This document shows, one piece after another, positions 13,969 through 35,900 of a DNA stretch of 64,000 bases. The DNA is from an uncultured Hoeflea sp. (lineage in GTDB: Bacteria > Pseudomonadota > Alphaproteobacteria > Rhizobiales > Rhizobiaceae), in contig NZ_CANMVK010000004.1 of NCBI RefSeq assembly GCF_947501405.1, positions 176,843-240,842 on the forward strand, read 5' to 3'. The notes beneath the pieces are model-generated. The model worked only from the letters and a program-made list of their open reading frames with translations, made no database searches and was not told the DNA's origin. The position numbers and the translations under genes are program-made. The first letter of the stretch is position 1. Each line of letters opens with the position of its first letter.

Positions 13969-14105
13969 TCCGGACATTCAATCCCCTGAGCTCAAGCGTT
14001 CGGCTGGCGATCGCCTGCCGGCCCGCAAGCCTTTTCGCCACGGCCGTAATCAGGGCACCATCACTACAGACAGCGTTCACACCACTCTCACGGGCAAGTG
14101 ATGCT

Positions 14106-14134
14106 GGATAACGCGCGCTTGATTTCCAGTTGAT
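14106..14134 (+). promoter_or_regulatory. Possible ECF-sigma-type promoter for the bufferin operon
   Basis: GGATAAC (14106-14112) and GTTGAT (14129-14134) are separated by 16 bp, a spacing and composition compatible with extracytoplasmic-function sigma factor promoters. It would start transcription about 75 bp before the first bufferin gene. The Caulobacter bufferin operon is known to be under an ECF sigma factor, but its consensus is not identical, so this is a weak inference. Confidence 0.25.
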
Positions 14135-14214
14135 GCGACAATTGGTCATGGTTTTCCTGCCGGGACAAAAACCACCCGGGCAATGGTTTCAAAGATACCT
14201 TCAAGGAGAACATC

Positions 14215-14520
14215 ATGTCGCAGAAATCCCTCATCGGTGCATCGGCTCTGGCCGGCGCTGTCGCAATGGCCCTTTCCGGCGCAACCCTCGTCGCCACCAC
14301 CGGAGATGCTGCCGCCGCCACCGAAAAGTGCTACGGTGTCGCCATGGCCGGCAAGAATGACTGCGCTGCGGGTCCGGGCACCACTTGCGCCGGTACGTCG
14401 ACTGTCGATTTCCAGGGCAACGCCTGGAAGACCGTTGATGCCGGCACTTGCGCCACCATGGAAATCGATGGCGGCCGCATGGGTTCGCTCGAGCCGCTCG
14501 ACCGCGATCTCCCGGCCTGA
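14215..14520 (+). CDS. bufA: Bufferin precursor peptide BufA1 (DUF2282)
   Basis: This 101-residue protein has a Sec-type signal peptide (residues 1-34, ending DAAAAT) followed by a small mature domain with four cysteines at 39, 50, 58 and 79. The motifs [17 protein letters not shown] and [12 protein letters not shown] are hallmarks of DUF2282. In Caulobacter this family was shown to be precursor of bufferins, periplasmic copper-sequestering ribosomal peptides whose cysteines are converted to thiooxazoles by an MNIO enzyme. The next genes here encode that enzyme and its partner. AAGGAG lies at the right distance before the ATG. Copper binding here is inferred from family membership; gold-responsive homologues (GigP) are also known. 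Confidence 0.88.
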
Positions 14521-14552
14521 TTACACAACCTCAGTTAAACGGGAGCTTCGGT

Positions 14553-15473
14553 ATGAACAGGTCCGCCCCATCCATCCCGTCTGCCGGGGACTCCCGTTTT
14601 CCGAACGCCCCGCTCCCGCCTCGTGCGGGGGCGGGTTTGAAGGCTGACCACATCGACGCCATTCTTGCCGACGACTACCGCATCGGCTTTCTCGAGGTCC
14701 ACGCGGAAAACTACATGGGTGACGGCGGCCCGGCGCACCGCGCGCTCGCGGCAATCCGCGCCGAATTCCCGTTGTCGGTTCACGGCGTCGGCCTGTCGAT
14801 CGGCTCACAAAGCGGCATCGATCCGGATCACCTTGACCGCCTCGCCCGGGTCGTGGAGCGCTACCAGCCCGGCATGGTCTCCGAACATCTTGCATGGTCG
14901 AGCCATGATGCGGGTTATTACAACGATCTGCTGCCGCTGCCTTACAATCGCCAGACACTGGACCGGGTGGTTTCCCACATCGTCCAGGTTCAGGACCGGC
15001 TCAAACGACCGATCCTGCTCGAAAATCCCTCCACCTATGTGGCGTTTGAGCAATCCACCATGAGCGAGACTGATTTCATCCGCGAAATCGCCCGCCGCGC
15101 CGGATGCGGCCTGCTGCTCGACGTCAACAACATATTCGTCTCCGCAACCAATCACGGCTGGAAACCGATGCAGTATCTGCGCGATTTCCCGCTTGAGCTG
15201 GTCGAGGAAATCCACCTCGCGGGACACGCCGAAGACACCGACGACGAGGGCGATATGCTGCTCATCGACGCTCATGATCGCCCGGTCGCCGATGCGGTTT
15301 GGAAGCTCTACGAGATCGTCATCAGCCAGGCAGGTCCTTTGCCGACCCTTGTCGAATGGGACAATGATGTGCCCGATTGGCCGGTGCTCAGGCGCGAGGC
15401 CATGCTCGCGGATACGATTCTCAAGCGCCTGGGGCCGGCATCGATGCTGGGATCACGCCATGCCGCGGAATGA
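14553..15473 (+). CDS. bufB: MNIO (DUF692) multinuclear iron oxygenase, bufferin-modifying enzyme BufB
   Basis: MNIO enzymes use two or three iron ions to modify cysteines in precursor peptides (as in MbnB and TglH). The 306-residue protein carries the DUF692 metal-site pattern: EVHAENY (47-53), SVHGVG (His77), SEHLAWS (Glu111-His112), LLENPSTYV (Glu157), LLLDVNNIFVSATNHG (Asp190, Asn192, His201), EIHLAGH (His221) and LVEWDND (Glu268). It is predicted to act on the BufA1 cysteines in the cytoplasm before export. The ATG at 14553 follows GGGAGC; the open frame runs 35 codons further upstream into bufA but without a family match. It overlaps bufC by 14 bp, which indicates translational coupling. 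Confidence 0.9.
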   Translation: MNRSAPSIPSAGDSRFPNAPLPPRAGAGLKADHIDAILADDYRIGFLEVHAENYMGDGGPAHRALAAIRAEFPLSVHGVGLSIGSQSGIDPDHLDRLARVVERYQPGMVSEHLAWSSHDAGYYNDLLPLPYNRQTLDRVVSHIVQVQDRLKRPILLENPSTYVAFEQSTMSETDFIREIARRAGCGLLLDVNNIFVSATNHGWKPMQYLRDFPLELVEEIHLAGHAEDTDDEGDMLLIDAHDRPVADAVWKLYEIVISQAGPLPTLVEWDNDVPDWPVLRREAMLADTILKRLGPASMLGSRHAAE

Positions 15474-16263
15474 GGCGCACGCCCTTGGCGAACAACCGGC
15501 ATTCAGCGCGGCGCTGCTCGATCCGGATCTTCCGCCGCCCGATGGCGTGATCGGCCCGCATGGCAAGGCCGCGACCAAGCGCTTTGCGGTCTACCGCAAC
15601 AATGTCACAGTCAGCCTGATCAACGCACTCGCGGATATTTTTCCTGTCGTAGCAAAGCTTGTGGGGCAGGACTTCTTTCGCGACATGGCGCGCTACTTCA
15701 TCACGCGCCATCCCCCGCGCTCGGCGTTGCTGTTTGAATACGGCCATGAATTCCCCGAATTTCTCAAGGATTTCGAGCCGGTGGCGAAACTGCCCTACCT
15801 GCCCGATGTCGCACGGCTGGAACGAGCCTGGCTCGACGCGTTTCACGCAGCCGATGCCGAGCCGCTCATGCCAGAGACGCTTGGCGCCATGCCACAGGAG
15901 CGGCTTGGCGATCTGGTCTTCACCCCGCATCCAGGGGCGCGGATCGTTCAAAGCGATTTCGCCGCCGTGTCGATCTTTTCAGCCAGTCGCGAAGACCGCC
16001 CGCTCAAGGGCATCCAGCCGCTGGCGGCGGAAGATGGCCTGATCACCCGCCCCTTCGACACAGTGCAGGTACGGCAACTCCCCGCGGGCGCAGCGTCATT
16101 CTTTGAGGCTCTGACAAACGGCCACACCCTCGGCGCCGCGGCCGCCCTGACACTCGACTCACATCCCGGCTTTGATCTTCCTTCGGCCATCTCGGCGCTG
16201 CTGGAGGCCGGCATCTTCACCGCCTGTCACCTCGAAAACGCTTCATCGGAGCTTCCGGAATGA
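15460..16263 (+). CDS. bufC: DUF2063 family bufferin maturation partner BufC
   Basis: This 267-residue protein has the N-terminal DUF2063 features: RFAVYRNNVTVSLINALADIFPVV (about 41-64) and PYLPDVARLERAWLDAFHAAD (about 112-132). DUF2063 proteins are partners of DUF692 enzymes and are thought to present the precursor peptide by binding its leader or a RiPP-recognition-like surface; catalysis is not expected. Its start codon lies inside the end of bufB, and its stop overlaps the start of the DoxX gene (ATGA), so the three genes are translationally linked. The C-terminal half is less conserved and unassigned. A larger open frame starts 89 codons earlier but is out of phase with bufB and is spurious. 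Confidence 0.85.
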   Translation: MPRNEAHALGEQPAFSAALLDPDLPPPDGVIGPHGKAATKRFAVYRNNVTVSLINALADIFPVVAKLVGQDFFRDMARYFITRHPPRSALLFEYGHEFPEFLKDFEPVAKLPYLPDVARLERAWLDAFHAADAEPLMPETLGAMPQERLGDLVFTPHPGARIVQSDFAAVSIFSASREDRPLKGIQPLAAEDGLITRPFDTVQVRQLPAGAASFFEALTNGHTLGAAAALTLDSHPGFDLPSAISALLEAGIFTACHLENASSELPE

Positions 16264-16841
16264 TTTCCATTGTCCATTTTCTGACTGATCTTCATCACCG
16301 CGTGTTCGGCTTCTTTGAGCGGCAGGCGGACAGTTGGCTGATCGGCCTGATCGCCCGCTTCGCCTTCGCGGCGGTGCTTTATGTCTACTTTCTCAATTCC
16401 GCCCAGACCAAGGTCGGGGAAGGACTCCTGGGCTTCTTTTCGATTCAACCCGGCGCCTATTACCAGATCGCCTATCCGGCGGTCGAAGCAGCGGGGGGCG
16501 ATGTCGGCGCCGTGGCCTTCCTGCCCTGGGGTTTGATCGTGCTGATGGGAACCTATGCGGAATTCATCCTGCCGCTGTTGATCGTCATCGGGCTGTTTTC
16601 GCGCATTGCGGCGGTGGGGATGATCGCCTTCATCGCGGTCCAGACCTTTGTCGACATCACCGTGCACCAGATTGGCGCCGAAGCCATTGGTGCGCTGTTC
16701 GACCGGTTCCCCAATGCGGTAATCATGGATCAGCGGCTGTTGTGGCTGATACCGCTGCTGGTGATCGCGCTCAAGGGCCCGGGTTTGCTGTCGATTGATG
16801 CGCTGCTGGCGCGGCGCTATCAGAGTGCCGGCTACGCCTGA
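16260..16841 (+). CDS. DoxX family membrane protein of the bufferin operon
   Basis: This 193-residue integral membrane protein has about four hydrophobic segments (near residues 28-48, 85-110, 115-135 and 160-178), fitting the DoxX/DoxD-like fold. DoxX-family genes accompany DUF2282-DUF692-DUF2063 operons (for example gigT in the gold-induced operon of Cupriavidus), where their function is unresolved; redox chemistry with quinones or thiols has been proposed. The start overlaps the bufC stop by 4 bp, so it belongs to the same transcript. There is no conserved Cys pair in this copy. It ends 96 bp before a convergent Hsp20 gene, with a terminator hairpin between. Confidence 0.85.
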   Translation: MISIVHFLTDLHHRVFGFFERQADSWLIGLIARFAFAAVLYVYFLNSAQTKVGEGLLGFFSIQPGAYYQIAYPAVEAAGGDVGAVAFLPWGLIVLMGTYAEFILPLLIVIGLFSRIAAVGMIAFIAVQTFVDITVHQIGAEAIGALFDRFPNAVIMDQRLLWLIPLLVIALKGPGLLSIDALLARRYQSAGYA

Positions 16842-16871: not shown

Positions 16872-16903
16872 AAAAATGGCGCCCAGTCTCCTGAGCGCCA
16901 TTT
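16872..16903 (-). terminator. Hairpin terminator between the DoxX and Hsp20 genes
   Basis: AAATGGCGC (16874-16882) pairs with GCGCCATTT (16895-16903) across an 11-bp loop. On the minus strand the stem is followed by a five-T run, so it ends the Hsp20 transcript. It may also stop rightward transcription from the bufferin operon, less efficiently, since only three T residues follow there. Confidence 0.7.
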
Positions 16904-16936: not shown

Positions 16937-17398
16937 TTAGTTTGCTTCGATCTGCTTGGGCTGCTCGCCGCCATCCTTGCTGATGGCGATGCGGCGGGGC
17001 TTCATGGCCTCCGGGACCTCGCGCACCAGATCGATGTGCAATAGGCCGTTGCGCAGCGAGGCGCCGCTCACTTCCACATGTTCGGCAAGCTGGAAGCGGC
17101 GCTCGAAGGCGCGCTTGGCAATGCCGCGATACAGGAATTCGGCGCCGTCGGCCGCTTTTTCATCGGCCTTCTCGCCCTTGACGGTGAGGGCATGTTCGCG
17201 GGCTTCGATCGAGATTTCAGCCTCATCGAAACCGGCCACGGCCATGGTGATCCGGTAGGTGGTCTCGCCGGTCCGTTCGATATTGTAGGGCGGATAGGAC
17301 TGGGCCTGATCGGGCTGCGCCAGGCTGTCGAGCATGGTCAAAAGCCGGTCAAATCCGACGGTCGAACGGTACAGTGGCGAAAAATCAACGTGACGCAT
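16937..17398 (-). CDS. Small heat shock protein, Hsp20/alpha-crystallin family
   Basis: Hsp20 proteins are ATP-independent chaperones that hold unfolded proteins for refolding. This 153-residue protein starts MRHVDFSPLYRSTVGFDRLL, the usual N-terminus of rhizobial Hsp20/IbpA proteins. The alpha-crystallin domain (about 38-135) contains YNIERTGETTYRITMAVAGF, HALTVKGEKAD and the LRNGLLHIDL motif, and the tail follows from about residue 138. It is a single gene with its own heat-shock promoter and a ROSE-type thermometer upstream (17399-17502). A GAAGGAGGACCTTAA ribosome binding region precedes the ATG at 17396-17398 and would be masked in the folded RNA. Confidence 0.95.
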   Translation of the reverse strand: MRHVDFSPLYRSTVGFDRLLTMLDSLAQPDQAQSYPPYNIERTGETTYRITMAVAGFDEAEISIEAREHALTVKGEKADEKAADGAEFLYRGIAKRAFERRFQLAEHVEVSGASLRNGLLHIDLVREVPEAMKPRRIAISKDGGEQPKQIEAN

Positions 17399-19770: not shown

Positions 19771-19846
19771 ACAGTCTTTGACTGTGAATGCCCTCTTTGG
19801 GCGTTTCCTCCCTAGACTTGACCGCGCCCTGAGCGCGGTTTTTTTT
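19771..19846 (+). ncRNA. mmgR: MmgR-type (alpha-r8/suhB family) small RNA
   Basis: The 76-nt element has three hairpins in a row: ACAGTC-TTT-GACTGT (19771-19785), GCCC-TCTTT-GGGC (19790-19802), and the terminator ACCGCGC-CCTGA-GCGCGGT (19821-19839) followed by eight T residues (19839-19846). Between hairpins 2 and 3 is the single-stranded TTTCCTCCCTAGACTT (19804-19819). Its anti-ribosome-binding-site character matches the conserved core of the alphaproteobacterial alpha-r8 family. MmgR of Sinorhizobium is about 77 nt and limits polyhydroxybutyrate accumulation. There is no upstream gene on this strand that the terminator could serve. Assignment rests on remembered consensus and structure. Confidence 0.8.
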
Positions 19847-19967
19847 GCCCGGTCCATGGACAAGGCGTTTTGAGACTGGATCTATTGATTCCGGGATCGC
19901 TCATCTCTTTGAGGTGGAGCCGGCAACACAAACGCATCCCGGCTATCGATGACGTGCGAAACCACCG

Positions 19968-32828: not shown

Positions 32829-35900
<3,072 letters not shown>

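Follow-up and report, generated by a model that had tools for sequence, protein, structure and literature searches.

A conserved promoter with CenR-like sites upstream of a type-1 bufferin operon in an uncultured Hoeflea sp.

Introduction

What switches on a bufferin operon in a bacterium without the NrsF regulator that is known from Caulobacter? This question is raised by the operon bufA-bufB-bufC-doxX, which lies in a 64,000-nucleotide stretch of DNA from an uncultured Hoeflea sp. (the whole of this stretch is referred to as the window, and coordinates are those of the window). Bufferins are a very large family of ribosomally synthesised and post-translationally modified peptides (RiPPs), and only some of its members have a known regulator. 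In Caulobacter, the sigma factor SigF with its negative regulator NrsF governs both bufferin operons and also a periplasmic methionine sulfoxide reductase, as set out in the relevant passages of PMC3511200 and PMC8224329. A preliminary description of the window had compared the four genes to the Caulobacter system; the regulatory region upstream of bufA was absent from that description, and it differs from the system which was cited there. We found that this region contains a conserved array of half-sites which matches published CenR sites and which recurs upstream of cenR and of a methionine sulfoxide reductase gene (msrB). Our best reading, made from sequence, is that the operon probably makes a copper-binding RiPP of the periplasm and is probably activated by CenR or by a close relative of the OmpR family.

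Results and discussion

A conserved element upstream of bufA

An alignment of 14 loci from the genus, two pairs of which were identical in sequence, revealed an extended block of conservation ahead of bufA (Table 1). Among 113 bufA upstream regions, 67 contained its core, TTGATTTCC, with no more than one mismatch and 58 contained it exactly, compared to averages of 3.9 (highest 17) and 0.25 (highest 11), respectively, when the same nine letters were shuffled. The other 46 regions were counted as lacking the element, including that of locus L117, which holds no true upstream sequence. Across 52 distinct elements, T-N-A half-sites were located at −42, −31, −20, −10, +1 and +12 from the core; in this order the T was kept in 34, 40, 29, 46, 52 and 49 elements and the A in 36, 39, 34, 41, 52 and 47, which makes the −20 half-site the weakest. 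The information profile of the 52 elements had an autocorrelation peak at lags 10–11, for which the shuffle test is only indicative, as shuffling destroys local smoothness. A −10-like CANNNT hexamer followed at +28 to +33 from the core, with its A present in 50/52 and its T in 37/52 elements. A plain sigma-70 scan found no promoter at the bufA element, and the element is laid out like promoters which depend on an activator of the OmpR/PhoB family.

The full 84-bp element did not recur elsewhere in the Hoeflea genome at better than E = 0.049 (stricter filters). The pattern TTGATTTCCNNTTKATS gave 29 rows in this genome and 5 with the reversed control; it was present without mismatch only at bufA, with one mismatch in one row and with two mismatches in 27, and the rows beyond bufA were read as noise. 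The bufA promoter is a conserved variant of bufferin control, of which we found no published account in the literature searched.

Sequence upstream of a gene may also be conserved as a terminator, leader or small-RNA feature, here of ltaE or bufA, and a weak terminator-like hairpin was found at 14126–14145 by a plain scan (the scan called 5 in the region vs an expectation of 3.4 from shuffled sequence). However, no Rfam family was found at the bufA upstream region, the conservation falls in half-sites with the 10–11 periodicity described above and the pattern recurs before cenR and msrB, which together make it very improbable that the block is such a feature rather than a promoter to which a regulator binds.

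The array matches published CenR sites

CenR of R. sphaeroides binds TGA-N8-TGA, with TCAC or TGAC as the first half-sites (PMC9275681, in the parts covering its regulon), and we built a CenR matrix solely from the 31 R. sphaeroides sites in Table 1 of that publication. This matrix had four in-phase matches at bufA (14077, 14088, 14109 and 14120), all of which rank among the highest 0.31% of positions in the window. In the 52 elements, that of the window included, scores were above the 99th percentile at the −10 half-site in 85%, at +1 in 79%, at −31 in 58% and at −42 in 48%. Out of 200 matrices with permuted columns, 5 reached the best observed conservation fraction and 0 reached the second-best. 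The site at 14088 also has the same half-sites and spacing as the CenR site at the S. meliloti srlA promoter, AgTCAC-N6-GTgAct, which is supported by electrophoretic mobility shift assay; CenR has been proposed to act as a class II activator (srlA passages of PMC9561847). The srlA promoter, which depends on CenK-CenR, carries its TCAC-N6-GTGA at about −42 as one site, whereas the Hoeflea bufA promoter has an array of three pairs.

The Hoeflea genome encodes 12 OmpR-family regulators by matches to PF00486. One of these, at locus L173, has 227 amino acids and both response-regulator domains and carries the landmark residues described for S. meliloti CenR (D55, L95, K105 and E159). Six of the twelve regulators could be aligned on K105, and among them L173 alone has all four landmark residues; we refer to this candidate gene as cenR.

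The site is shared with cenR and msrB

Within the Hoeflea genome, the region upstream of L173 resembles the bufA array. We searched 18 genomes of the genus for the 24-bp pattern TNAC-N6-CTCAC-N3-CAAGTG with at most one mismatch and found 42 rows, consisting of 18 at bufA, 17 at cenR, 2 at msrB and 5 others, compared to 10 rows for the reversed pattern. Without mismatch there were 32 rows: 16 at bufA, 15 at cenR and 1 other. The 18 bufA rows cover all of the genomes (15 were checked at the locus and three were placed by DUF2282 coordinates), and the pattern was found 160 to 169 bp upstream of cenR in every genome of the genus except G009. The two msrB rows lie 89 bp upstream of a gene for a SelR/MsrB protein, with an export signal judged by eye, in the genome studied here (G000) and in G001. 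Two of the five other rows (L205 and L216) were examined at the locus and had no probe gene. In the consensus of the genus cenR promoters, the first half-sites are the same as those of the bufA array and stand in the same phase. Both cenR itself and msrA are among the CenR targets listed for R. sphaeroides (target table of PMC9275681).

A number of observations weigh against CenR as the regulator. The bufA and cenR matches in G000 are not independent, because the 24-bp pattern was drawn from those two regions; the informative results are the cenR matches in the 16 other genomes, the two msrB matches and the scarcity of other rows. No TTGATTTCC core is present at cenR, which means that bufA may be subject to an additional factor or that its site may require a special geometry. 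Because the bufA site is almost a palindrome, its orientation is ambiguous: best scores of the CenR matrix averaged 10.5 on the forward strand, 9.6 on the reverse strand and 3.7 in shuffled elements. The summed four-site score at bufA ranked first of 127,886 window positions (34.1 vs 11.5 for the next unrelated place), a rank which is descriptive because the four-site spacing was taken from the bufA matches themselves. The best single forward site was outscored at ten window positions, one of which is the same place on the reverse strand. Four sites above the threshold within 60 bp were also found at 32918, inside a reading frame which resembles that of a glycogen synthase, and this cluster was put down to chance. 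The tolQ gene, a CenR target elsewhere, had no phased array, with best scores of 6.9 on the tolQ strand and 10.5 on the opposite strand at the start codon, and this result speaks neither for CenR nor against it. The naming of L173 as the CenR candidate comes from its length and four residues and not from a tree. The R. sphaeroides CenR regulon differs in that its published target table (PMC9275681) contains no bufferin gene, neither DUF2282 nor DUF692. Our literature searches found no paper which joins CenR and DUF692 and only one mention of copper beside CenR, and in the text of PMC10746171, on Brucella CenR, no mention of DUF692, DUF2282, copper or a motif was found. As no published link between CenR and bufferins was found, this link is either new or wrong. 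The regulation is wholly read from sequence.

Phased direct repeats of 11 bp are a general mark of the OmpR family, and with twelve PF00486 matches in the genome and no TTGATTTCC core at cenR, another regulator of this family, for example one of the 11 other winged-helix regulators, could drive bufA, cenR and msrB together. Against this, the half-sites and spacing fit the CenR sites of two species, the targets listed for CenR in R. sphaeroides include cenR and the motifs in print for ChvI, GCC-N8-GCC and TTGC-N3-GCAA, differ from the element. We therefore rejected ChvI as the regulator; for BvrR, the literature passages gave no usable motif. Control by another OmpR-family member is, on this evidence, rather unlikely. 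CenR is the best-supported regulator, and we favour it with some confidence. In the mechanism we propose, the phosphorylated response regulator CenR of the cell-envelope system CenK-CenR, or an OmpR-family protein closely related to it, would bind the three tandem half-site pairs down to the −35 region and recruit RNA polymerase; both CenR binding and the inducing signal are what we infer.

The element and NrsF-like genes were found at different bufA loci

The bufferin-1 operon of Caulobacter, CC3254–CC3257 (CCNA_03363–03366), agrees with the Hoeflea operon in gene content and order (DUF2282, DUF692 MNIO, DUF2063 and DoxX). In Caulobacter, sigF adjoins the operon and the promoter is GTAACC-N16-CGAA, whereas Hoeflea has no NrsF in its genome and a phased OmpR-type array at bufA. 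As both Caulobacter operons are under SigF (PMC3511200 and PMC8224329, passages cited above), a SigF-type extracytoplasmic function (ECF) sigma factor, with an anti-sigma factor missed by the NrsF profile, might be expected to act here too. However, the profile search found NrsF in 0/18 genomes of the genus and in 7/61 genomes overall, with no search aimed at the ECF sigma factors of the Hoeflea genome itself, and nothing upstream of bufA comes closer to the SigF promoter than 3 mismatches.

The same contrast was seen across bufA loci, where the search for NrsF used four in-frame NrsF probes. NrsF-like genes were found in 13 distinct loci (16 rows, of which three were duplicates), all of them without the element. 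NrsF was thus found in 13/46 regions without the element vs 0/67 with it (Fisher: P = 3e−6), among loci which are related, in part duplicated and of differing flank length. A SigF-type promoter with at most one mismatch was present in 9/13 NrsF loci, in 7/29 other regions without the element (after exclusion of three duplicates and L117) and in 2/67 regions with the element. Counted by genome, NrsF was found in 0/28 genomes with a match to the promoter model (E ≤ 0.01) vs 7/33 others (P = 0.013); it should be noted that 27 of these 28 matches sit at bufA and that many of these promoters had entered the model. Counted by genus, the difference was not significant (0/11 vs 7/33, P = 0.17). We consider SigF-type control of the Hoeflea operon to be highly unlikely.

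The CenR-type activation proposed above would replace the SigF-NrsF switch in Hoeflea and in many other Rhizobiales. The chances seem evenly balanced that, in Rhizobiales without SigF-NrsF, the essential envelope regulator CenR took over the bufferin module, with a very small site class shared by bufA, cenR and exported msrB which would couple the RiPP and methionine repair to envelope stress. If so, the same functional pair which SigF governs in Caulobacter, bufferins and a periplasmic methionine sulfoxide reductase, would be governed by a different regulator, and the presence of this pair under two unrelated regulators would suggest one shared periplasmic problem. The essential CenK-CenR system would also gain a metal or oxidant output, and its signal would become testable with a bufA reporter. 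The conserved promoter in Rhizobiales without SigF would account for the activation of a second group of bufferin operons.

The operon encodes a type-1 bufferin system

The four genes reported in the preliminary description were present with the gaps it gave (32 bp, −14 bp and −4 bp), as confirmed by a direct read of the sequence. It had treated the whole operon as translationally coupled; the overlaps between the genes speak for this in bufB-bufC-doxX, and the 32 bp behind bufA are ordinary operon spacing. The coordinates of the genes and of the upstream features are given in Table 1.

Table 1 Features of the bufferin operon, its upstream region and the msrB sites (window coordinates unless a contig or locus is given).
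Feature	Position	Strand	Basis and remarks
Six T-N-A half-sites, ~11-bp phase	14077..14133 (starts 14077, 14088, 14099, 14109, 14120, 14131)	+	52 distinct elements; predicted CenR/OmpR-family array
Almost invariant core TTGATTTCC	14119..14127	+	Adjoins or overlaps predicted −35 region
−10-like hexamer CATGGT (consensus CANNNT)	14147..14152	+	52 elements; predicted transcription start near 14159
Shine-Dalgarno AAGGAG of bufA	14203..14208	+	AAGGAG in 13/14 aligned genus loci, AGAGGAG in one
bufA, type-1 bufferin precursor (DUF2282), 101 aa	14215..14520	+	PF10048; signal peptide ~residues 1–35 by eye; Cys 39, 50, 58, 79
bufB, MNIO bufferin maturase, 306 aa	14553..15473	+	ATG start; NF050167, PF05114; alignments to 3bww, TglH, MbnB
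bufC, DUF2063 plus RRE-type partner (PME-type 1), 267 aa	15460..16263	+	ATG start; PF09836; AlphaFold2 model; PDB fold matches
doxX, DoxX-like membrane protein, 193 aa, last operon gene	16260..16841	+	PF07681 slightly under cut-off
msrB upstream sites	G000:C2:97235-97258; L185:1501-1524		CenR-like half-sites; matrix score 12.3 in own genome (G000)

The protein families proposed in the preliminary description were recovered for BufA, BufB and BufC, and DoxX fell slightly below its Pfam cut-off. BufA matched DUF2282 (PF10048) at 82.2 bits (Pfam cut-off 22.4), and its sole NCBIfam match was a weak one to the BufA2 model (19.8 bits vs a cut-off of 60). The four cysteines which had been described for the precursor were present in 112/112 aligned BufA sequences, with exactly four cysteines in 110; the alignment includes the window sequence and some duplicate loci of one genome. 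Judged by eye and not by a predictor, BufA appears to have a Sec signal peptide with cleavage at AAAA/TEK, which would leave a mature peptide of ~66 residues with all four cysteines.

BufB matched MbnB_TglH_ChrH (PF05114) at 348.2 bits (Pfam cut-off 25) and passed the curated MNIO_BufB model NF050167 (NCBIfam: 380.5 bits, cut-off 310). It aligns with the solved MNIO proteins 3bww, TglH and MbnB, and the His/Glu/Asp/Asn pattern which had been noted for it was borne out, as the eight residues H112, E157, D190, N193, H221, D239, H241 and E268 are common to these three proteins and are kept across 102 BufB sequences. These residues are presumably the iron ligands.

BufC matched DUF2063 (PF09836) at 96.1 bits (Pfam cut-off 27.2) and was below the cut-off of the NCBIfam model HvfC (42.1 bits vs 142). 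Searches of BufC and BufA against PDB sequences with phmmer gave no match, so a fold search was needed for BufC. Its AlphaFold2 model had a mean predicted local distance difference test score of 93.7, and the only PDB fold matches at E ≤ 0.001 were TglI (8hci/8hi7) and NGO1945 (3dee); as modelled, BufC folds like these MNIO partners. NGO1945, which combines a DUF2063 with an RRE domain, is described as typical of such partners (passages of PMC12452194 on MNIO partners). DoxX scored 22.7 bits against PF07681 (E = 0.00016, Pfam cut-off 23.6) and 20.5 bits against the NCBIfam model HvfX, below the cut-off of 80, and its gene has the same position as in Caulobacter.

Every testable sequence feature fits a type-1 bufferin cluster, with the exception of the borderline DoxX score, and we read the protein system as a complete type-1 bufferin operon and an ordinary new member of the family. 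Comparable clusters are those for HvfABC, fontiphorins and oxazolins (captophorins), in which an MNIO with a DUF2063-RRE partner likewise installs thiooxazoles; the captophorin precursors have EGKCG repeats, whereas the Hoeflea precursor belongs to DUF2282. In the proposed mechanism, BufA would be produced with a Sec signal peptide, and BufB, a multi-iron MNIO, and BufC, its RRE partner, would convert the two central cysteines of BufA to thiooxazoles in the cytoplasm. The modified BufA would then be exported, its outer cysteines would form a disulfide and the mature peptide would bind excess periplasmic copper, with DoxX as a membrane accessory. This chemistry, the export and the copper binding are what we infer for Hoeflea.

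That bufferins are copper-buffering RiPPs, as the preliminary description had stated, is in print in the bufferin passages of PMC12452194, and the gold response of gig operons which it had mentioned is likewise in print, as is their response to copper (gig passages of PMC5413113 and PMC8224329). The gig operons of Cupriavidus metallidurans and Legionella pneumophila are homologous and metal-responsive, and a gold or copper response has been shown there. The main job of the modified peptide of Hoeflea might lie elsewhere than in copper buffering, for example in the response to gold, silver, chromate or oxidative stress: responses to gold, silver, chromate and cadmium are known from related operons, and that an exported methionine sulfoxide reductase has the same kind of site hints at oxidative stress of the envelope. 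However, the characterised thiooxazole peptides of this class are reported to bind copper (PMC12452194 and PMC13097082, in the passages on these peptides), and a main role other than copper buffering seems doubtful to us.

Distribution and gene neighbourhood

BufB is 85% identical to the proteins of the loci of Hoeflea sp. BRH_c9 and Hoeflea alexandrii. The Hoeflea genome contains a single DUF2282 gene and a single MNIO gene, and DUF2282 was found in every one of the 18 genus genomes; over all 61 genomes searched the count was 44 (own genome included). All three of bufA, bufB and bufC were found together in 79/80 named loci, so their grouping is not due to chance, and doxX was found by similarity in 60/80. 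Two tandem bufA genes stand ahead of one bufB at loci L064, L084, L114, L115 and L116, and there are two DUF2282 matches per genome in G044, G047, G050 and G059. At L102 and L107, which are Rhizobium loci with NrsF, ~1 kb separates bufB and bufC, which recalls the adjamnio-VI insertions mentioned in PMC12452194.

The order ltaE-bufABC-doxX with a convergent hsp20 gene is common in Rhizobiaceae, and in Roseibium ltaE lies downstream of doxX. In the window, an IbpA-type small heat-shock gene at 16937–17398 (− strand) is convergent with doxX, as it is at the same place in many Rhizobiaceae, and a hairpin of 13 pairs lies between the two genes at 16874–16903. The ltaE and hsp20 genes were still adjacent in 6 of 17 genomes without DUF2282 (G019, G025, G026, G027, G033 and G046); this weakens the case for ltaE and Hsp20 being functionally tied to the operon, and the neighbourhood looks like an inherited gene order. 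At L212 in G034, another genome without DUF2282, a LysR-like gene and a membrane protein gene (both judged by eye) lie between ltaE and hsp20, in the place of the buf operon. Further along the window, at 19783–19853 (+ strand), we found the Rfam suhB/mmgR small RNA RF00519 (64 bits).

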